Source: Elusimicrobiota bacterium
GTDB taxonomy: Bacteria; Elusimicrobiota; Elusimicrobia; F11
Reading direction: 5' to 3'
NCBI GenBank assembly: GCA_022072025.1
Contig: JAJVIP010000014.1
Coordinates: forward strand, 39,149 to 103,148
Length of the DNA stretch: 64,000 nt
Shown here: piece after piece, positions 10,947 to 49,743 of the stretch
Layout of the letters: each line of letters starts with the position of its first letter
Numbering within the stretch: the stretch's first letter is position 1
Translations under genes and position numbers: made by a program
Notes under the pieces: model-generated
What the model was told of the DNA's origin: nothing
Seen by the model: only the letters and a program-made list of their open reading frames with translations
Database searches by the model: none

Positions 10947-11116
10947 CGTCATCCCGGCCCTTTTGTTAGAAGGTGCGGATGATAAGGAGAGCATAAGCCG
11001 GGATCCATCTTTTCCAGAAGATGAGGGGGTCTTCACCCCCTTCGCGGGAACGGCTGGATCCCGGCTTATCCGCTTGTCCACAATGGCGTCATTTCTGAAG
11101 AAGGGCCGGGATGACG
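10947..11116. repeat. Palindromic repeat element, 170 bp
   Basis: Ends CGTCATCCCGGCCCTT and AAGGGCCGGGATGACG form a perfect 16-bp inverted repeat. Inside it, TAAGCCGGGATCCA (10994-11007) pairs with TGGATCCCGGCTTA (11055-11068). The element sits in the intergenic space 10887-11267 between divergent genes and is a relative of the repeats at 14.9, 17.2, 38.0, 48.5 and 49.0 kb. Confidence 0.8.
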
Positions 11117-11267: not shown

Positions 11268-14267
11268 ATGACACGTCAAACTAAACCAAATACATTATGG
11301 CTCTCACTGTTCCTGCTGATCGGTGTTCACAGCTCCATTCACGGTAAACGGTTTATTCCCAATCGAAAATCTGAAAAACATGAAGTGAATTTCAGGTCCA
11401 CAGATCCCAAATCTTTTTACAAATCTCTTTCGTTTCTTCTTGAGCAGCAACCCCCCGACCAGGTGAACACCATCAACGCGCGGGCGACCATGGCGGAGTT
11501 GTTGTTTGAAACCGAAAATTACCGCGAAGCGGCCCAGATTTTTTTGCAGTTAACCGAGGCTCCGTTGGCGGATATCTACAAGCTCTCCAGTTTTCAATAC
11601 CGGCTCGCGGAGTGTTATTTTTACATGGGGCTTTACGGCGAATCCTATGATCAATTTTCCAATGTCCGAAAAGAGGGGCACATCTCTTTGCAGGCGGAGG
11701 CGACCTTGGGGATGGCCATGGCCGCCTTGGCGCAGGGGAATCGGTCCAGCGCTCAAGCCCACCTCGATATTCTGCTTCTCGAAAATGAGTATTACAAAAC
11801 CTACGCGCGGGCGCTGTACCCCTCCGGGATCATGCTTTTCCAAAATGATCAATATCAACGCAGTCTGGCCTTCTTCGAAAAGGATCTGGAGGATCCCAAA
11901 AATCTTTATTTCGCGGGATTGGCCTATCGGCGCATGGGACAATCGTCCAAGGGACTGGCCAATTTTCAGAAATTAACCCAAAAATTCCCCGGGACGGTTT
12001 GGGCCCAGCGTGGAGCTTTTGAAGTGGCCGAAACCTATTACCAACAACAGGATTATCCGCTGGCCTTCCAAAGTTTTCAGCGTTGGCTCAGCGAATTTCC
12101 CAATGGAACGCTGCAAGTGGAGGCCCAATTCCGCATGGCTTGCGCGGACATGCGCCGTCAGCACTATCAAGAAGTCATCAATCGCTTGGAGCCGCTTTCG
12201 AAGTTGGATTTACATCCTTCGATGGCGGATCGAATCCGGCAATTGGTCACGGAATCTTGGGTACAGATGGACCGCATTCCTGAGTTGGTCGCCAGTATCC
12301 GGAAAAAAGGGCGATCACGCGACCGAACCCCAGATGAAAATTATCAGTTGATGTGGGCCTTGGCCGCGCTTGGCAAATATCAAGAGGCCTTGGCGGCTTC
12401 AGAAGAAGGGCTGGGCAACTTTTTTGATGCCGAGCTCACCCCGAAAATTTTGTTGGTTCAAGGATTTTGTTACGACAAAGTGGGGCGTCCGGCAGAAGCC
12501 TTGGCGGCCTATCAGACCGTCGTTGACCGATTTCCTAAATCCGCCTATTCCGCGCGGGCCCTCCATTTGATGGCTCTTTCCTATGTGAAAGCGCAGAGAT
12601 GGCAGGAACTTGTGACCCATGTGTACCATCATTGGGCCAATTTGCCCGCCGACATACGGGAAAAATATCCGGAAGTGGAATTCTGGGTGACAGAAGGCCA
12701 GTTAACCCTGGGGAATTTCGAACTTTCTCAAAAACGATATCAACAATATCTTTCTGCCGCGCCTGATTCTCCGTTAACCCCTTACGCCTATCTGGGGTTG
12801 GGGGTGGCCCAGGCGCAAAATGGGCAATTGGACCAGGGGTTTCAAACCTTGCAGCAATTCGCGGCGATCGCCAAACAGAAAAACAAACCCGAATGGCTGG
12901 CTTTGGCCACGCTCCAATCAGGAAATATTTTTTTCAATCAGAAAAAATATGAACAAGCGATTGGCTATTTCCGCACTTTTCAAACCGATTACCCGAAGGA
13001 TATTCGGGTCCCTCAGGCCATGTTTCAAGAAGCCCAGGCTCTCTACCGGCTTGAATATTACACCGACGCGGTGAGCGTATGGAACAAATTGGCGGACAAA
13101 TATCCGGATCACATCCTGACTGAAAAGGCCCGGTTCCAATCCGCTCGGACATTGTTTGATTTGGGGGAAAGCACCGCCGCTGTTCAAGCCTTTCAGGTTT
13201 TCATCGTCAAGCATCCCACCAGCGATCGGCTCAAAGAGGCGCGCCTCCAATTGGCGCATTGCTACTACAACGCCGGCAATTATAAAGAGGCCATTCCCCG
13301 CTACCAAGAATTTTTGCTTCTTTATCCCGCGGCCGAAGAGGTGGCCAGCGTGCAAGATTTCCTGCAAATGTCCTATGTGCAGGGCGGGAAGTCGGAGTCT
13401 GAAATTGAAGAGTTGACCAAGGGGCAAGCCAAGTCCCAGGTATTGGCTGATTTGTATTGGGACAAAGGCGCGAAGGCCTACAATGATAAGGACTACAAAA
13501 CGGCCTTGGGATATTTTGAAAAAATCCTCATTGAATTCCCGGCCAGCAGTTTGGCGGCGCAGGCCTCGTTCTACCGGGCGGAATCCTTTTTCTTACAAGA
13601 AAAGAATGAAGAATCCGTGTCGGCCTATAAAAACTTTTTGGCCCAGTTTCCCAATGATGAGCAGGTTCCCACGGCGATGTTTCGTCTGGGGGTGAGTTTG
13701 TTTAATTTGAATCGTTTTGATGAATCCGCCATGACTTTTGAAAGTTTGGTGCAGAAATTTCCAGACGATCCCTTGTCCTCGCAAGCCGCTGAAAACATCC
13801 CGCTCGCCTATGCAAAAGTTGGGAAGACGGCGGATTCCGAAAAAGCCTTTGAGGCGCTTCTGGGCCGCACCACCGATCCATCCAAAAAGGCCCAGTTGAA
13901 CCTTCAATTGGCGCAAATCAAAGAACAAAATGGAGCGGCGGCGGAAGCCATTGGTTATTACGAGCGGGTGGAACCTTCTAGACCTGAGTTTGCTCAAGCC
14001 ATGTATGGCGTGGGGAACTTGTACAGCAGAGCCGGCCAAAACGATATGGAAATGAGCGCCTACGAAAAGCTCTTAACGTTTCAACCCAAAGACGACGCCT
14101 ACCGGATCGCCGCCTTGAGCCGGTTGGCTGAACTTTATATTGGGCAAGGCCAAGCCCAGAAAGCCCTTTCGACGTACAAAGATGTGGTAGAGAATGCCAA
14201 AGATGAAACGGCCTTATCGAATGCCCGTTCACGGATCGAAGAGCTGCAAAAGGTTCTCGCAAACTAG
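11268..14267 (+). CDS. Giant exported tetratricopeptide-repeat protein of a Tol/Ton-like operon
   Basis: 999 aa: an N-terminal hydrophobic signal (about residues 9-26) and then TPR units across almost the whole length, each showing the alternating small/large pattern with P-A-x-A/F-x-L-G spacing (e.g. KYEQAIGYFRTFQTDYP, DYKTALGYFEKILIEFP). It resembles a hugely expanded CpoB/YbgF or BamD-type periplasmic scaffold. It lies 8 bp before exbB and starts the operon, so it likely organises the ExbB-ExbD-TonB machine or its outer-membrane partner. No catalytic motif is seen. Confidence 0.8.
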   Translation: MTRQTKPNTLWLSLFLLIGVHSSIHGKRFIPNRKSEKHEVNFRSTDPKSFYKSLSFLLEQQPPDQVNTINARATMAELLFETENYREAAQIFLQLTEAPLADIYKLSSFQYRLAECYFYMGLYGESYDQFSNVRKEGHISLQAEATLGMAMAALAQGNRSSAQAHLDILLLENEYYKTYARALYPSGIMLFQNDQYQRSLAFFEKDLEDPKNLYFAGLAYRRMGQSSKGLANFQKLTQKFPGTVWAQRGAFEVAETYYQQQDYPLAFQSFQRWLSEFPNGTLQVEAQFRMACADMRRQHYQEVINRLEPLSKLDLHPSMADRIRQLVTESWVQMDRIPELVASIRKKGRSRDRTPDENYQLMWALAALGKYQEALAASEEGLGNFFDAELTPKILLVQGFCYDKVGRPAEALAAYQTVVDRFPKSAYSARALHLMALSYVKAQRWQELVTHVYHHWANLPADIREKYPEVEFWVTEGQLTLGNFELSQKRYQQYLSAAPDSPLTPYAYLGLGVAQAQNGQLDQGFQTLQQFAAIAKQKNKPEWLALATLQSGNIFFNQKKYEQAIGYFRTFQTDYPKDIRVPQAMFQEAQALYRLEYYTDAVSVWNKLADKYPDHILTEKARFQSARTLFDLGESTAAVQAFQVFIVKHPTSDRLKEARLQLAHCYYNAGNYKEAIPRYQEFLLLYPAAEEVASVQDFLQMSYVQGGKSESEIEELTKGQAKSQVLADLYWDKGAKAYNDKDYKTALGYFEKILIEFPASSLAAQASFYRAESFFLQEKNEESVSAYKNFLAQFPNDEQVPTAMFRLGVSLFNLNRFDESAMTFESLVQKFPDDPLSSQAAENIPLAYAKVGKTADSEKAFEALLGRTTDPSKKAQLNLQLAQIKEQNGAAAEAIGYYERVEPSRPEFAQAMYGVGNLYSRAGQNDMEMSAYEKLLTFQPKDDAYRIAALSRLAELYIGQGQAQKALSTYKDVVENAKDETALSNARSRIEELQKVLAN

Positions 14268-14275
14268 GAGGAAAG

Positions 14276-14890
14276 ATGCATCCGCTTACATTTAAAGAAA
14301 TTATGTCGGTGAGTATTGTTTTGCCGGTGCTGATGGTGCTGTCTGTTATTTGCATCACAGTGATGATTGAGAGAATGATTTTTTTCTTCCGGTTTGCTCG
14401 CGTCAATACGCACTTGTTGGACCGAGTTCGCACTTTTGTGAAGGCCGGGAAAATGGCGGAGGCTAAAAATGAGGCCTTGCGGAAAAAAGGGCTTATTCCT
14501 GAAGCCATCGCGGCGCAAATCGACGCGATGCACCTGCCGCGCTATGAACGGGAAAGTTTGGTTCTTTTTTATCACCAGAGACTTCAGTCCCTTTTACAAA
14601 GGCGGTTGTGGATTTTTGGAACACTCAGTTTTATCTGCCCGCTCATTGGACTCTTGGGAACCGTGTTGGGTGTGATGCGCTCATTCCGCGATTTGGCCAT
14701 CTCTGGTTCCGGCGGACCGACCATTGTGGCGGCGGGTATTTCAGAAGCGTTGATCGCGACCGCCGGCGGAATTGCGGTCGCTATTACCGCGGCCATCATT
14801 TACAACTGGTTTAACATATGGATGAAGAACACGCTGACCAACAGCGATATTTTCGGTCAAGAGATGATATTCCTGACCAGCGGAAAATAA
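14276..14890 (+). CDS. MotA/TolQ/ExbB proton-channel protein
   Basis: 204-aa inner-membrane protein with three membrane helices: residues about 10-30, and a pair after the cytoplasmic helical loop (LWIFGTLSFICPLIGLLGTVLGVM and the EALIATAGGIAVAITAAII helix). The GLLGTVLGVMRSF and ATAGGIAVAI motifs are diagnostic of ExbB/TolQ. It forms the proton channel with the ExbD proteins downstream. GGAGGAAAG lies upstream of the ATG. In this Tol/Ton family it could be named exbB or tolQ; context does not decide. Confidence 0.92.
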   Translation: MHPLTFKEIMSVSIVLPVLMVLSVICITVMIERMIFFFRFARVNTHLLDRVRTFVKAGKMAEAKNEALRKKGLIPEAIAAQIDAMHLPRYERESLVLFYHQRLQSLLQRRLWIFGTLSFICPLIGLLGTVLGVMRSFRDLAISGSGGPTIVAAGISEALIATAGGIAVAITAAIIYNWFNIWMKNTLTNSDIFGQEMIFLTSGK

Positions 14891-14896
14891 TACAAA

Positions 14897-14936
14897 CGTC
14901 GTCGCCCCGGCATGTTTCTTGGCCGGGGCCCAGGTT
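14897..14936. repeat. Half copy of the palindromic repeat in the exbB-exbD gap
   Basis: CGTCGTCGCCCCGGCATG, then TTGGCCGGGGCCCAGGTT, are the left half of the family; the right half is missing. The remaining 14937-15036 holds no gene. It contains GAGGAGAG just before the exbD start, the only functional site I see. Confidence 0.75.
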
Positions 14937-15036
14937 CGAACGGGTGGCAAACTGAGGCTCCGGACAGAGGAATGCTGGAGCAAGCAGTGAGAGTCGAAAA
15001 GGTGGTTTGGCAGGTCATAAATGAGGAGAGATAGAT

Positions 15037-15471
15037 ATGTCGGAAATGATGACAGATGAAGGAGGCGAGACAGAAACCATCAACGTGGTTCCGTTGGCGG
15101 ACCTGTCGTTGGTGCTCCTTATTATCCTCATGGTGCTTTCCCCCATGGTGATGTCATCCATGATTCGGGTTCAAACACCACGCCTTGAGAAAGTTAAAGC
15201 CACGAAAAAGGCAGTCCAGGAAAAAACACCGGATCCGCTTCTCATAAAAATCACGTCGCAGGGTTTGTTTCTCAACAACAACCCCATTGAGTCCGAGCAA
15301 TTCTTGGCCGAGCAACTCGCGATAAAAATTTCCGATGAACCCACGCGGGCGGTGATTGTGTCAGCTGACGATAATATTGAAGTGGGGGCCGTGGTCCATT
15401 TGCTGGACTTGGCCAAACAACATGGAGCCAGCAAGGTGTCTTTATTAAAAGGAGGGCCAACGGGATCATGA
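15037..15471 (+). CDS. ExbD/TolR-family protein 1
   Basis: 144 aa. A short cytoplasmic N-terminus, one membrane helix (LADLSLVLLIILMVLSPMV) carrying the conserved aspartate of the proton path, and a periplasmic domain with DEPTRAVIVSADDNIEVGAVVHLLD matching the C-terminal ExbD fold. GAGGAGAG precedes the ATG. Its stop overlaps the next exbD start (ATGA). Confidence 0.92.
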   Translation: MSEMMTDEGGETETINVVPLADLSLVLLIILMVLSPMVMSSMIRVQTPRLEKVKATKKAVQEKTPDPLLIKITSQGLFLNNNPIESEQFLAEQLAIKISDEPTRAVIVSADDNIEVGAVVHLLDLAKQHGASKVSLLKGGPTGS

Positions 15472-15884
15472 AAATGAACGCGCTATTATCAGAAGAACCC
15501 ACCATCGCCGGCGTCAATATTGTGCCGGTGATCGACTTGTGTTTGGTCCTCCTGATTATTTTGATGGTTACCTCCCCTCTTCTTGAAACGGCGGATTTGC
15601 CGGTCAAATTGCCTCAAGCCTCCACCATTGAAAGCAAGGACCGAAATATATCGGTCACCTATTCGCCTGACGGACGGATGGCCATCAACACGGACATGGT
15701 GGAGCCTGAGAACTTTGTTCCAGCTTTGCGAAAGCTGTTGATCGAAGACCCTGAGATTTTGGTTATTTTGCGGGTGGACCGCGCGGCGACCTATGGAACT
15801 CTCACGGATCTTATTGCGGAATGTAAAAAGGCCGGAGCGTCCAATATTTCAATCGGAACGGAACAAACAAAACCCAATGGCTAA
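15468..15884 (+). CDS. ExbD/TolR-family protein 2
   Basis: 138 aa, a paralogue of the preceding gene. INIVPVIDLCLVLLIILMVTSPLL includes the channel-facing Asp in the membrane helix, then a periplasmic domain with EDPEILVILRVDRAATYGTLTDLI. Two different ExbD proteins beside one ExbB and one TonB suggest a hetero-oligomeric stator. The start overlaps the previous gene by 4 bp and the stop overlaps the TonB start by 8 bp. Confidence 0.92.
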   Translation: MKMNALLSEEPTIAGVNIVPVIDLCLVLLIILMVTSPLLETADLPVKLPQASTIESKDRNISVTYSPDGRMAINTDMVEPENFVPALRKLLIEDPEILVILRVDRAATYGTLTDLIAECKKAGASNISIGTEQTKPNG

Positions 15885-17178
15885 AACAGCAACCCCCATC
15901 GACTTCGGTAAAAGTTGGAACAACCAAGGCCCTTCGTTTGGCTTGGATGTGATGAGTTTTATTTTTGCCTTGGTCATGCATATCCCACTATTCTTTATGA
16001 AATTCGATGCGCATAAAAAATCCATCGATCGGCCTTCCGAACGATTGGTCTCGGTTGATCTTATTGAGCCGGAGAAGCCCAAACCCGTGGAAGTGCAGGC
16101 GCCGCCTCCGCCGGTGGTCAAAGAGGCCAGTTTGATGGAGAAACTAAAGGCGTTGGTCAAAAAAGAGCCACCCCCACCGCCTCCTTTGGACCCCAAACCT
16201 TTACCGGAAAAATTATTGGAAGCCCCCAAACCGTTGCCGCTTCAGGCCAAACTCGACATGCCGGAAAAAATTCAACCCACCTTGGCCACGAAAAGTGGAT
16301 TTCAGACAAAAGCCGATCCGAAATTGGTTAATGAGGCCAAGTTGGCCATGAATGCGCCAGTGCCGGGCATTGCTCCTCTTTCCGCCCAGAAACTCGGAAC
16401 CATCGATGACCGTTCCGCGGTGAAATCCAACAAAGGATCGTTTCAGTTGGGAAAAGGAGATGTGGTGAAGTCGATTGGAGGAGACGGCCCCAGTATTTCG
16501 GGCGCGGCGGCGCCGGTGGTGTCCATTCGGACGGGGTCCAAAGCCACAACGGAAAATTTTTCAGCGCCGGTTACCCAGAAAACAGACAAGGGACGGATCG
16601 GAGCGGTGCCCCCGGTGGGGTTGGGAGGCGCTCCTCAATTGGGATTGCGCGATTCCATCATTGCCCGGGATGCTGGCGCGAACCAAATTAACACAGGGAG
16701 CCGATCGGGGGGCGTGCCCGGGGGCGTTCCGGGAGGTATTCCCGGCGGAACGGGAGTAAAAAAAGACGCGGGCAAATCATTTCAAGCGGTCCCGACCCCG
16801 GGAGTTTCGGGTGGCACGGGATTGGGAACAGCGAATTCAGCGGCACCGGTGGTGGCGTCACTCCCCAAGAAAAAAGAGAAACCTTCTCTGTTTGTTATAT
16901 CCGGACCTCTTAAAGACAGAAAAATTGAGAAACAAGTTCCCCCTGAATATCCGGATTGGGCGCAAGCGCAAGGAATTTCGGCTTCGGTTCTGCTGGAATT
17001 TACCGTGGATCCCAATGGATTTGTTAAAAATCTAATTGTTGTTCGTAAAACCTCTGGTTATCCTAAGCTTGATGACACGGCCATCGCCGCTTTGCGGAAG
17101 TGGAAATTTGCTCCGCTCACCGATGGAGCCAATCGAGAAGAAGTGGGATACATTACGTTCAATTACTCTTTGAGTTAA
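15877..17178 (+). CDS. TonB-family energy transducer
   Basis: 433 aa. The start is the ATG at 15877 (MAKTATPIDFGKSW), overlapping the exbD stop; an in-frame ATG further up lies inside exbD. A membrane anchor (about residues 20-42) is followed by a long proline/lysine linker (PPPPPVVKEA and KKEPPPPPPLDPKP types), a Gly-rich spacer with GVPGGVPGGIPGG, and a C-terminal TonB domain (VPPEYPDWAQAQGISASVLL, then WKFAPLTDG). It transmits proton-motive force to an outer-membrane receptor. No receptor lies in the window. Confidence 0.92.
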   Translation: MAKTATPIDFGKSWNNQGPSFGLDVMSFIFALVMHIPLFFMKFDAHKKSIDRPSERLVSVDLIEPEKPKPVEVQAPPPPVVKEASLMEKLKALVKKEPPPPPPLDPKPLPEKLLEAPKPLPLQAKLDMPEKIQPTLATKSGFQTKADPKLVNEAKLAMNAPVPGIAPLSAQKLGTIDDRSAVKSNKGSFQLGKGDVVKSIGGDGPSISGAAAPVVSIRTGSKATTENFSAPVTQKTDKGRIGAVPPVGLGGAPQLGLRDSIIARDAGANQINTGSRSGGVPGGVPGGIPGGTGVKKDAGKSFQAVPTPGVSGGTGLGTANSAAPVVASLPKKKEKPSLFVISGPLKDRKIEKQVPPEYPDWAQAQGISASVLLEFTVDPNGFVKNLIVVRKTSGYPKLDDTAIAALRKWKFAPLTDGANREEVGYITFNYSLS

Positions 17179-17180
17179 AT

Positions 17181-18350
17181 ATGAAACACTTATTGGCCCG
17201 AATATTTCAGTTGAATTGTCGCCCCGGCACGTTTTTGGCCGGGGCCCGGGTTTTCCCCATTAACAAAACCTGGGTCCCGGCCAAACTACATGCCGGGACG
17301 ACGGCGCTAAAATATTCACCGTTGATAGATGATAATGGCCGTTTAACTGAATTATTCGAGCTAAGAAACACTCAGGGTTTTGTCATCTCGGAATGTCTTC
17401 GTTTGGGACGACGGGTTTGTAACTTTATCTCTATTGTTTGTTTTAACGGGGTTCTCGCTTTTGCGGGGATGACGGCATTTTCCATAGCAGCCATGGCGGC
17501 TCCGCTCGATATGACCGTCAAAGGTGAAATCAAAGACAAGATCAACATTGAACGTGTGTCCGCTCCGACCGATGTGGCGCTCAAAGACGTTATTCCTTTT
17601 TCTCGGTTGGGACAGACCGATTGGATGCTCACAGAAGAATTGGGGTACATGGATGAGGAAAAACAAGTGGCGCTGATGGATGTTCACAGTCCCAAAACGT
17701 TTCGTCCCTCTATGATTGAATTTCCCAAACCGCCTTTTTTTGTGCAGGCCTATCCGCCGCCCAGAGTTCCCATTATTGTTGACCGAAGCCCCAATGCGCC
17801 TCCTCCCCGTGGAGAGAACGAGACCTGGACCTTTTTGGTGGTGGACCAGAGCAATCAATTGTTAAAAAAATTGGAAGGGAACACGGCGCCGGTCGAACCC
17901 ATTCAGTGGGATGGCGTTACCAACGGTCAATTTGTTCTTCGGACAGATGAAATATATTCCTCTGTTTTGGTGATTCAGGAAACTCCAGAAGTCTCTCGAA
18001 CCATCGTGGGAGATCCAATTTGGCTTCCAGCGCTTCGTTACATCAGGGGAAACAGCATTGTTTTTGAGTTCAGCAACAAACGGGTTTATAACGACAACAA
18101 AGCTTCCTTCGCGTCTGCCCTTCAAGTGTTGGTGGACCAGTTAATGAACGAATTGCGTAAATATGAAGGAGCTCCCTTCTCCGTGACAATCGCCGACCGC
18201 GATTTGGATTTGGCTCAACGTCGTTCCCAGCTTTGGAAAAAAGTTCTACAAGAGAATCTATTGAAGCCCGCTGATCAATTCAGTGTTAAAGTGACCATGC
18301 CCACAGACCGAGGTTCGGTGACTCAAATTGTGTTGGAGATCACGAAATGA
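17181..18350 (+). CDS. Periplasmic protein with Ig-like and degenerate OmpA-like domains; N-terminus contains repeat-encoded peptide
   Basis: 389 aa from the ATG at 17181, 2 bp after tonB. The first 70 or so residues are encoded by a palindromic repeat (CRPGTFLAGARVF through LIDDNGR) and a second repeat. The signal peptide proper is FISIVCFNGVLAFAGMT plus FSIAAMA-A. A TTG at 17403 (giving MGRRVCNFISIV) would make a normal-length signal peptide and is the main alternative start. The mature part has a FlgD/gliding-motility-like strand set (TWTFLVVDQSNQLLKKLEG), then a helix-strand C-terminus (LDLAQRRSQLWKKVLQ) like a decayed OmpA/Pal peptidoglycan-binding domain. Likely a Tol-Pal-like partner. 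Confidence 0.65.
   Translation: MKHLLARIFQLNCRPGTFLAGARVFPINKTWVPAKLHAGTTALKYSPLIDDNGRLTELFELRNTQGFVISECLRLGRRVCNFISIVCFNGVLAFAGMTAFSIAAMAAPLDMTVKGEIKDKINIERVSAPTDVALKDVIPFSRLGQTDWMLTEELGYMDEEKQVALMDVHSPKTFRPSMIEFPKPPFFVQAYPPPRVPIIVDRSPNAPPPRGENETWTFLVVDQSNQLLKKLEGNTAPVEPIQWDGVTNGQFVLRTDEIYSSVLVIQETPEVSRTIVGDPIWLPALRYIRGNSIVFEFSNKRVYNDNKASFASALQVLVDQLMNELRKYEGAPFSVTIADRDLDLAQRRSQLWKKVLQENLLKPADQFSVKVTMPTDRGSVTQIVLEITK
17188..17367. repeat. Palindromic repeat element inside coding sequence
   Basis: Outer arms GAATATTTCAGTTGAA (17200-17215) and TTTAACTGAATTATTC (17342-17357) are inverted repeats with two mismatches, extending about 10 bp further with lower similarity. Inner arms GTCGCCCCGGCA (17218-17229) and TGCCGGGACGAC (17291-17302) also pair, as do the GGCCGGGGCCCGGGTTTT and AAAACCTGGGTCCCGGCC arms. 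The frame stays open across it. It is close kin to the copy in coaB. Confidence 0.8.
17379..17477. repeat. GTCATC-ended repeat next to the previous element
   Basis: TTGTCATCTCGG at the left and CGGGGATGACGGCA at the right form short inverted ends resembling the 10947-11116 element. The frame is open throughout and encodes part of the signal peptide. Boundaries are approximate. Confidence 0.45.
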
Positions 18351-19138
18351 AAAAGTCCTTTTATGGATATGGAAAAGCCGGGGCTCTGGTGGCTCTGTTG
18401 GTTTTTGGATTTTTCCTTCCCGTCCTATTTGCAGAAAGCAATGACCCCCGCGTCAAAGTCTTGTTAGAAGAAGCCTTAAGGCTTTACAGTGAACGTCAAT
18501 ATGTGCGCGCGCTTGATTTGTTTAAACAGGTTCAACGAATCGATCCTCAGAATTCCACCGCTTCTGAATATGTGAAAAGCTCAGAACAAAGAATTATGGA
18601 ATGGGAGTCGGAGGGGGCTGGAACTGATTCGAAAAAAGATGCGAACTGGGACACCCTCCTCAATAAAAAAAGAGGTGGTGTGGCGGATACCGCTCCCAAT
18701 GCATCCGATATCATTGCGGCCAGAAAATCACTGGTCGAGCGGATGAGAAACCGTTCAACAAACACGGACAATATCGTTCAAATTCAAGACACCAAGAATG
18801 AATTGGCAATTCTTTTATATCACGATCAATTGTTTTTGCCGGGATTGTTAACCCTGCGGGATGAATCGTTGCCCATCCTTGAAAATGTGGCGGTTCTCAT
18901 TCGCCAAAAAGGGGACCGTTCTGTAAAAGTTCAAAGTGTGGCCCATACCAATTCAAACGATCCCTATTTGCTTTTTCCGGAAGTATCCAACGAGGGGTCT
19001 CTTGATCGTTCTTTACCCAATATGCAACAAGGAAAGTCCATGTTTTTTCAAGATATCGAAGCCACACGGTCCATGGTTTTGTTTACCTATCTGGCCCAGA
19101 GAAGTATGGGCAAACAGCCCAAATCCTCCAACGAATAA
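18347..19138 (+). CDS. Exported TPR plus degenerate OmpA-like protein
   Basis: 263 aa. A signal peptide (cleavage near VLFA-ES, residue 27) is followed by a single TPR-like pair (EALRLYSERQYVRALDLFKQVQRIDP), a low-complexity linker, and a C-terminal part (LRDESLPILENVAVLIRQKG, SVKVQSVAHTNSNDP, ATRSMVLFTYLAQ) with OmpA/MotB strand-helix order but without the full NxxLSxxRA signature. It overlaps the upstream gene by 4 bp. It probably closes the envelope operon as a peptidoglycan-side partner of the ExbB/D-TonB complex. Confidence 0.65.
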   Translation: MKKSFYGYGKAGALVALLVFGFFLPVLFAESNDPRVKVLLEEALRLYSERQYVRALDLFKQVQRIDPQNSTASEYVKSSEQRIMEWESEGAGTDSKKDANWDTLLNKKRGGVADTAPNASDIIAARKSLVERMRNRSTNTDNIVQIQDTKNELAILLYHDQLFLPGLLTLRDESLPILENVAVLIRQKGDRSVKVQSVAHTNSNDPYLLFPEVSNEGSLDRSLPNMQQGKSMFFQDIEATRSMVLFTYLAQRSMGKQPKSSNE

Positions 19139-37932: not shown

Positions 37933-37980
37933 TATGAAATCTCAATTTCATGTTAATTTGGAAAGAAAACGGGTGAACAT

Positions 37981-38162
37981 CGTCGCCCCGGCATGTCGTT
38001 TGGCCGGGGCCCAGGTGTCGTATTTTTCTCAGAATTTATTCCAATACGGTTTAAAAAAACAAAACCTGGGCCCCGTACCGTTCCATAATGATCTTGGTCG
38101 GTACGTACCGGCATTACGCAAATCAATGTATCGGTACGGCCAAGAAGCGTGCCGGGGCGACG
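37981..38162. repeat. Intergenic palindromic repeat with nested element
   Basis: Ends CGTCGCCCCGGCA (37981-37993) and TGCCGGGGCGACG (38150-38162) are perfect inverted repeats. TTGGCCGGGGCCCAGGT pairs with AACCTGGGCCCC. Between the right-arm halves lies a nested unit bounded by GTACCG and CGGTAC (about 38075-38138), also present in the udg-gene copy. It fills the gap 37933-38190; no gene is seen there. Confidence 0.88.
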
Positions 38163-47971: not shown

Positions 47972-48868
47972 TTGAAACATCGAGTTCTTATCACAGCGGG
48001 CCCCACACGGGAATGGATGGATCCCGTTCGTTTCATTTCCAATCCCTCCACGGGGTCGATGGGTATCGCTTTGGCCGAGATTCTTCACAAACAAGGTGTC
48101 GACGTCACTCTCATCTTGGGCCCCACGACGCTTCGCCCGGCCGAAAGAATGAAAGTGATTCATGTCGAATCAGCTCTTCAGATGTTGGAGGCCGTCAAAC
48201 GGCATATAAAAAATTCTGATGTCTTTATTTCCACGGCCGCCGTGGGTGATTGGCGTTTTGAACGGACGGCGAAGAACAAAATTAAGAAGAGCTCCCAAAA
48301 AACCATGCAAATCAAACTTGTAAAAAACCCGGATATATTGGCTGAGATCGGACAACTCGTTAAGCCTCGGCCCGGGGCTACTGATACAGTGGACAACTTA
48401 ACTGGAAATATTCAGTTGAATCGAACCAAAAGGACCTGCACAAGGCGCTGTCGCCCCGGCAATTTTTTGGCCGGGGCCCAGGTTTTCCCCATGAAGAAAA
48501 CCTGGATCCCGGCCAGAAAGCATGCCGGGATGACGGCACTAAAATATCCACAGTTGATAGACGATAATGGTCGTTCAACTATATTATTCGGGTTAAAGAC
48601 ACAGGGGGTGGGGAAAACTTCGCCGTTGCTCATTGGGTTCGCGCTGGAAAGCGAAAACCTGAAAAAAAATGCACTTAAAAAATTAAGGGAGAAAAACCTC
48701 GATCTCCTGATTGGAAATGGTGTCGATTCGTTTGGAAGCCCGACCATTCAACCTTTTTGGATTGAAAAAGAAGACGGAGTGAAGGCCCTGCCAAGGATGA
48801 GCAAAGTCAATTTGTCCAAAAAAATTTCAGCCTGGTTGAAAAGTCAATGGAAAAAGAAGAAGTCGTAG
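47972..48868 (+). CDS. coaB: Phosphopantothenate-cysteine ligase with in-frame repeat insertion (CoaB part)
   Basis: 298 aa from TTG 47972. [31 protein letters not shown] and [11 protein letters not shown] are the CoaB domain, and [11 protein letters not shown] should continue directly to a KxxRPLxVGFAxE strand. Instead about 70 residues are inserted ([17 protein letters not shown] through [13 protein letters not shown]), encoded by a palindromic repeat, before [13 protein letters not shown] resumes. [14 protein letters not shown] follows normally. The insertion falls at a surface loop between conserved strands, so activity may survive. Confidence 0.9.
48397..48597. repeat. Palindromic repeat inside coaB
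   Basis: Outer arms near GAAATATTCAGTTGAA (48405-48420) and TTCAACTATATTATTC (48574-48589), inner arms CTGTCGCCCCGGCA and TGCCGGGATGACGG, and the middle arms GGCCGGGGCCCAGGTTTTCC and AAAACCTGGATCCCGGCC. It matches the element at 17188-17367 along its length, with about 20 extra bases after the left outer arm. Confidence 0.85.
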
Positions 48869-49743
48869 AGCTGATTAAAGATTTCAAGGCCCACTTGGAA
48901 GATACGGAGGGAGAGTTGGCCTATTGGGGGGAGCGGATTGATCTAATACAAACGAATGAAATAAAGATACAAAATCGTCGTCCCGGCACGCTTCTTGGCC
49001 GTACCGATACATTGATAAGCATAATGCCGGTACGTACCGACCAAGATCATTATGGAACAGTACGGGACCCAGGTTCTGATGGCGACGAAAACCTGGACCC
49101 CGGCCAAAGGCTTGCCGGGGCGACAGCGTCTAATGAGGAAGACCCGGCGTCGCGTTTGGAAATTTTACGAACGGAAACCATCGGCGACTGCCATTTGTGT
49201 CCGTTGGGAGACACGCGCGTCAAATTGGTCTTTGGGGTGGGAAATCCAGCGGCCAAGGTGATGTTCATCGGCGAAGGGCCGGGTTACGACGAAGACCGCA
49301 AGGGCGAACCGTTTGTTGGAAAAGCGGGACAATTGCTCGATAAGATCATGGGGGCCATCGGACTGGACCGGACCCAGGTGTACATCGCCAACATGGTCAA
49401 ATGTCATCCGATGAAAGACGCCGCGCAACCCGAACTTCGGGGAAACGACCGTCCCCCCACTCCCGAAGAAATGGATAAGTGCCATCCGTTTCTGTTGGAA
49501 CAAATCCGCATTATTCACCCCAAAATTATTGTGACTCTCGGGGGTGTTTCAAGCAAAGCTCTTTTAAATACCACCCAAGGCATCACCGCTCTTCGCGGCC
49601 AGCTGTTTGATTTTAAGATTGATGACCATCTTCCCTCCATCAAAGTCCTCCCCACCTTCCATCCCGCGGCGCTTTTGCGGGACGAGTCTCTAAAGAAATG
49701 GGTCTGGGAGGACATGAAACTGTTGCGCAGCCTCCTAACATGA
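48847..49743 (+). CDS. Family-4-like uracil-DNA glycosylase with in-frame repeat insertion
   Basis: 298 aa. The core from GDCHLCPLGDTRVKLVFGVG, then VMFIGEGPGYDEDRKGEPFVGKAG and LPTFHPAALLRD, is a 4Fe-4S type UDG (cysteines at CHLC and later). Before it, residues about 44-93 (RRPGTLLGRTDTL through QRLAGATAS) are encoded by a palindromic repeat in frame, in the linker between a short acidic N-terminal helix and the catalytic domain. The core is uninterrupted, so the enzyme is probably active. ATG 48847 overlaps coaB by 22 bp; the stop overlaps priA (ATGA). Confidence 0.92.
   Translation: MEKEEVVELIKDFKAHLEDTEGELAYWGERIDLIQTNEIKIQNRRPGTLLGRTDTLISIMPVRTDQDHYGTVRDPGSDGDENLDPGQRLAGATASNEEDPASRLEILRTETIGDCHLCPLGDTRVKLVFGVGNPAAKVMFIGEGPGYDEDRKGEPFVGKAGQLLDKIMGAIGLDRTQVYIANMVKCHPMKDAAQPELRGNDRPPTPEEMDKCHPFLLEQIRIIHPKIIVTLGGVSSKALLNTTQGITALRGQLFDFKIDDHLPSIKVLPTFHPAALLRDESLKKWVWEDMKLLRSLLT
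48976..49125. repeat. Palindromic repeat inside the uracil-DNA glycosylase gene
   Basis: Left end CGTCGTCCCGGCACGCTTC, right end TTGCCGGGGCGACAG. The segment is 150 bp as drawn, an exact multiple of three. GTACCG...CGGTACGTACCG bounds the nested unit also found, in reverse orientation, at 38075-38138. Confidence 0.85.

Follow-up and report, generated by a model that had tools for sequence, protein, structure and literature searches.

A conserved Elusimicrobiota operon encoding an ExbB/TolQ-like motor with two ExbD paralogues, a TonB-type transducer and a giant TPR protein

Motors of the 5:2 ExbBD/TolQR/MotAB type drive processes as different as import and export, maintenance of the envelope, swimming, gliding and defence. 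A recent survey of force transducers predicts that more systems built on such motors exist (PMC12204202). An operon at positions 11268-19138 of a 64,000-nucleotide stretch of an Elusimicrobiota genome (assembly GCA_022072025.1, contig JAJVIP010000014.1, positions 39,149 to 103,148; hereafter the window) carries motor genes of this type and raises the question of whether it encodes a Tol-Pal system, a Ton system or something else. No description of the operon in Elusimicrobiota was found by literature search.

All seven genes are present and run in one direction on the forward strand, nearly all of them overlapping or abutting. A secreted TPR protein of 999 residues (11268..14267) is followed after 8 nt by an ExbB/TolQ-like proton-channel subunit (14276..14890; 204 residues), and then by ExbD1 (15037..15471), ExbD2 (15468..15884), a TonB-type force transducer (15877..17178; 433 residues), Orf6 (17181..18350) and Orf7 (18347..19138). 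The ExbD1/ExbD2 and Orf6/Orf7 pairs overlap by 4 nt each and ExbD2/TonB by 8 nt, while TonB and Orf6 are 2 nt apart; the sole larger gap, of 146 nt between ExbB and ExbD1, contains a dispersed repeat unit. The start of the transducer gene was placed at 15877, the first start (15793) falling within ExbD2, and that of Orf6 at 17181 (ATG) or 17403 (TTG) rather than at 17100. Scanning for promoters and terminators at the operon gave results near chance level, and no TonB-dependent receptor was found among the operon genes in the gene list or by Pfam. The presence of one ExbB, two ExbD, a long-linker TonB and a huge periplasmic TPR protein in one operon, as proposed in an earlier sequence-only reading, is borne out by the Pfam assignments and the tight co-directional packing, and the anatomy of the operon is held with high confidence. 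Decaying genes or pseudogenes were ruled out, the frames being open and the motor residues invariant.

Several repeats were observed in and around the operon. An imperfect inverted repeat (69% over 176 bp) lies just 5' of it at 10947-11116, and a dispersed palindromic repeat family occupies the window sites 14901-14936 (the unit in the ExbB-ExbD1 gap, with blastn matches at many places in the window and its own genome), 17218-17306, 37976-38016, 48445-48575 and 48967-49133. Repeat-derived DNA at 17218..17470, likewise detected by blastn against the window and its own genome and clearest at 17218-17306, falls within the signal-peptide region of Orf6 and keeps its reading frame; the orthologous Orf6 at locus L013 begins MKKVLIHL...AAPLD, without this DNA. 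Repeat peptides of the 'WIPAFAGMT' type were also seen in the N-termini of relatives (Orf6 at L018, Orf7 at L103).

The TPR protein matches Pfam TPR_6 (2.5e-47) and TPR_16 (6e-45) and, in nine stretches, the tol_pal_ybgF model TIGR02795 (242 bits), its many repeats being of the YbgF/CpoB type; its N-terminus resembles a signal peptide and has no lipobox. ExbB (PF01618, 1.3e-23), ExbD1 (PF02472, 5.7e-22) and ExbD2 (PF02472, 1.2e-22) find their best NCBIfam matches in tolQ (6e-25) and tolR (5e-20 and 4e-20), all below the curated cut-offs. The transducer carries a TonB C-terminal domain (PF03544, 3.1e-16, 60 bits against a cut-off of 24.6; TIGR01352, 2.9e-15, above cut-off) behind a long linker rich in Pro, Gly and Ala. 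Key residues are conserved, namely the channel residues Thr129 and Thr162 of ExbB (47 of 47 homologues), the proton-binding Asp22 of ExbD1 (41 of 41) and the transmembrane motor-contact residue His35 of TonB (44 of 44), and Asp23 of ExbD2, present in the window copy, is kept in 36 of 43 sequences with Asn, Ala, Thr or Ser in the other seven, these being counts of sequences rather than of independent lineages, with near-identical loci included (L013/L102, L019/L115, L024/L105 and L016/L108). On a quick ExbD tree built from few columns and with many weak forks, the Asp-less ExbD2 sequences fall into four separate lineages, the Asp of ExbD1 is never lost, and all ExbD1 sequences lie on one side of a branch as a clade of their own (support 98). 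This last point indicates an old duplication after which the gene order was never switched, and ExbD1 and ExbD2 are thus taken, from their sequences, to be ancient paralogues in fixed order.

The two exported proteins at the end of the operon were examined by profile-profile comparison and by structure prediction. Orf6 of the window, which has a disordered N-terminal part, gave nothing with sequence HMMs; its homologue in a second copy of the operon gave a weak FlgD_ig match. Its C-terminal part aligned with the OmpA domains of the genome in hhalign at 96% (E-value 2.6e-9; maximum 1.3% over 20 column shuffles), and its AlphaFold (AF2) model (pLDDT 82) retrieved TssL/MotB/OmpA peptidoglycan-binding domains in Foldseek (E-value 2.9e-6), so that the C-terminal end is clearly predicted to be an OmpA-like fold behind an FlgD-Ig-like domain. 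Orf7, with a TPR-like N-terminal part, gave sub-threshold TssL/MotD matches only with sequence HMMs; hhalign against OmpA reached 70% (E-value 4.2e-5; shuffled maximum 1.05%), and its AF2 model (pLDDT 70) was too weak and gave no significant Foldseek match. Its C-terminal end may, on weak grounds, carry a partial OmpA-like domain, shorter than that of Orf6. The decayed OmpA-like ends suspected for both proteins can accordingly be recognised clearly in Orf6, by profile and by fold, and weakly in Orf7, by profile. In the family alignments both proteins lack the HTD motif found in OmpA domains that bind peptidoglycan, and neither sequence shows a lipobox. Orf7 is restricted to a subset of few families; its profile HMM, like that of PorV, drifted into Orf6 and TPR proteins.

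The operon is no isolated, divergent case: it is conserved, motor residues included, across a large part of the phylum and occurs twice in its own genome, the second copy being on contig C27. Examination of related genomes for the same gene order revealed the complete row TPR-ExbB-ExbD1-ExbD2-TonB-Orf6 at 33 loci spread over many families of the Elusimicrobiota, a figure that applies to the neighbourhoods read, which were picked by an Orf6 or ExbB match, and not to all genomes; the recurrence of one order in these loci argues against a chance arrangement. Most other neighbourhoods are cut by contig ends or contain frames fused or split by simple gene calling. Orf6 profile matches were found in 180 of 341 Elusimicrobiota genomes, with long, strong matches in about 17 of 29 families and weak or partial matches only in families f5 and f21, which have small genomes. 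The closest named relatives by ExbB (74% identical) are Ca. Obscuribacterium magneticum and Elusimicrobia fen_1177, the latter keeping the entire row through tilS and ftsH. ThrS, found 5' of the operon in several families, was set aside as a housekeeping neighbour.

The genome of the window contains seven ExbD genes at five loci. Contig C27 encodes TolB (368 bits, cut-off 343), a YbgF/CpoB protein (95 bits, above cut-off) and a Pal-like OmpA lipoprotein (118 bits, just below the cut-off of 125), and contig C2 a TolQ-TolR-TolA-like trio, which we infer to form one Tol system with the C27 genes; on C26, ExbB-ExbD-TonB lies beside a TonB-dependent receptor. No operon protein matches the TolB beta-propeller in the Pfam and NCBIfam models, and the last two genes include no Pal with full signature. 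An ordinary Tol-Pal system was ruled out, the canonical set being encoded elsewhere, and so was an ordinary Ton system, the operon having no receptor and a receptor-bearing Ton cluster being present elsewhere. The view of the cluster as neither Tol-Pal nor Ton thus stands, and the existence of both sets elsewhere in the genome makes the operon an additional system.

It might still be a second machine of Tol-Pal-like function, in which the motor pulls the CpoB-like TPR protein and Orf6 and Orf7 as stand-ins for Pal, holding the outer membrane to the cell wall in growth or division. The operon resembles Tol-Pal in a motor whose ExbB and ExbDs score best, below the cut-offs, against the TolQ and TolR models, in a TolA/TonB-type transducer, in the YbgF/CpoB-type repeats and in the predicted OmpA/Pal-like fold of Orf6. 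In addition, families f10, f11 and f23 have an extra protein of 1013-1049 residues between TPR and ExbB, and the one scanned (L089) has an intact OmpA domain as well as FlgD_ig repeats. However, the operon differs from Tol-Pal in its two TolR and in the absence of TolB and of a full-signature Pal, the TolB-CpoB-Pal genes and the TolQRA-like trio lie elsewhere, and Orf6 and Orf7 have neither the HTD motif nor the lipobox, which together render this explanation rather unlikely.

Neighbouring genes bear on a different load for the motor. A giant Ig protein that has an FlgD_ig tail and a barrel of the PorV/PorQ family, which scores 131 bits against NF033709 (cut-off 90), lie directly 5' of the second copy; the PorV and Ig arrangement recurs at L014, L018 and L106, with PorV alone at L023, these PorV neighbours having been found by phmmer with barrel parts only as query. 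PorV and Ig genes are not adjacent to the window copy, which counts against a surface load. The UPF0164/PorV-like family has 15 matches in one genome (G000), and with PorV-like proteins so numerous some of the adjacency may be loose. Families f10, f11, f18 and f23 have genes for a HAMP-like membrane protein (with weak HAMP scores) and for a CheY-like protein within or beside the operon, and f24 has a CheY-like gene there; such genes would be expected if the motor is regulated. Loci with HAMP-like and CheY-like receiver genes were noted at L088, L089, L099, L111 and L122. In Gemmatimonadota and Latescibacterota, the row PorV-TPR-ExbB-ExbD occurs at about ten loci, where the next gene encodes a protein of TM/DUF4159 type (DUF4159 scanned in one). 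This PorV-TPR(1081)-ExbB-ExbD-TM-DUF4159 cluster, found within L026-L050, is conserved and apparently uncharacterised; it has PorV, a TPR protein of about 1080 residues, ExbB and ExbD in one row as at some Elusimicrobiota loci, but only one ExbD, the DUF4159 protein in place of TonB, and no Orf6.

The second locus, with its PorV barrel and tail-bearing Ig proteins, would also fit an export motor of type IX kind. Such a motor would take the part that PorLM plays in Bacteroidota and energise an outer-membrane route of PorV/SprA-like type, by which Ig proteins carrying tails of the FlgD/CHU_C type are exported. The TPR protein scores 99.6 bits against the PorW/SprE model (cut-off 250), SprA-like matches, mostly to proteins of about 1800 residues, occur in 187 of 199 Elusimicrobiota genomes, and GldM was not found in a search of 117 genomes run without a positive control. 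Yet none of the SprA or PorW scores reaches its curated cut-off (the best SprA score in the genome of the window being 50.5 bits against 200), and SprA-like proteins are present also in the operon-less families f5 and f21, so that these proteins do not depend on the operon; we consider this role unlikely. A SprA/Sov-like protein of 1822 residues (L151:6992-12457; G000:C2:481375 region), below cut-off, matches two separate profile regions and has a PorV-like gene nearby, and Elusimicrobiota may, judged from such matches, possess an undescribed type IX-like translocon. An orphan Ton system, importing through a receptor encoded elsewhere, is highly improbable despite the genuine TonB C-terminal domain and the receptor in the genome, since the known receptor adjoins its own ExbBD-TonB and the operon, which shares motor and TonB_C transducer with Ton, has no receptor, two ancient ExbD paralogues and, regularly, a 1000-residue TPR protein and Orf6 that are not Ton parts.

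Among described systems, the closest are the TPR-tolQ-two tolR-vWA clusters of PVC and other bacteria, reported in 2025 and of unknown function (PMC12204202, section 8). They share with the operon a TPR gene, one TolQ-like and two different TolR-like proteins and a TM-tethered transducer with a conserved motor-contact His; in contrast, the transducer here ends in TonB_C, the Pfam scan giving no vWA match, the next gene is Orf6 with FlgD-Ig-like and OmpA-like domains, and the phylum is Elusimicrobiota. The AglRQS-Glt core of Myxococcus gliding comprises one TolQ, two TolR, the TonB-like GltG and the periplasmic TPR protein GltD of about 1000 residues (PMC3169522), all with counterparts in the operon, which differs in having no FHA domain and in an Orf6 without a listed Glt counterpart. 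No operon protein passed a curated Glt family model, the only match being to GltE (30 bits, cut-off 225) through generic TPRs, and gliding is therefore an analogy and not a finding, although a possible role. As a defining feature of each is lacking, the operon is placed apart from both the vWA clusters and AglRQS-Glt, as a system of the 5:2 motor-transducer kind.

The interpretation that we favour, with confidence about evenly balanced, is that of a separate PMF-driven machine transmitting force across the envelope through a mixed ExbD axle to an outer-membrane or surface load. ExbB would form a pentameric proton channel enclosing an axle of ExbD1 and ExbD2, and the motor would drive the TonB-type protein via its transmembrane His. 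The long linker and C-terminal domain of the latter would span the periplasm and pull a partner held by the TPR scaffold and by Orf6. The load, suggested by the PorV-type barrels and Ig surface proteins of the second locus, would be an outer-membrane or surface assembly, with which the machine would work like AglRQS-Glt, so that surface proteins are moved, presented or anchored, possibly with surface motility as an outcome. The fixed order in the 33 loci, the intact ExbB Thr, ExbD1 Asp and TonB His, the old split of the ExbDs, with the Asp lost from ExbD2 in four lineages and never from ExbD1, and the presence of Tol-Pal and Ton elsewhere argue for this machine, as do PorV and Ig genes by the second copy, PorV by TPR-ExbB-ExbD in Gemmatimonadota and Latescibacterota, the HAMP-like and CheY-like neighbours and the parts list shared with the AglRQS core (PMC3169522). 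A bolder form of the proposal is offered tentatively and is on the doubtful side, namely an undescribed third trans-envelope motor with an obligate ExbD1-ExbD2 heterodimer, reduced to a single Asp in some lineages, that drives a PorV/Ig surface or export machine under HAMP/CheY-type control.

The preservation of this gene order across much of a phylum, in addition to Tol and Ton systems that are separate from it, points to a further use of 5:2 motors. The Asp losses, which recur in ExbD2 and never affect ExbD1, offer a natural experiment on the division of labour between the two axle subunits in these motors.
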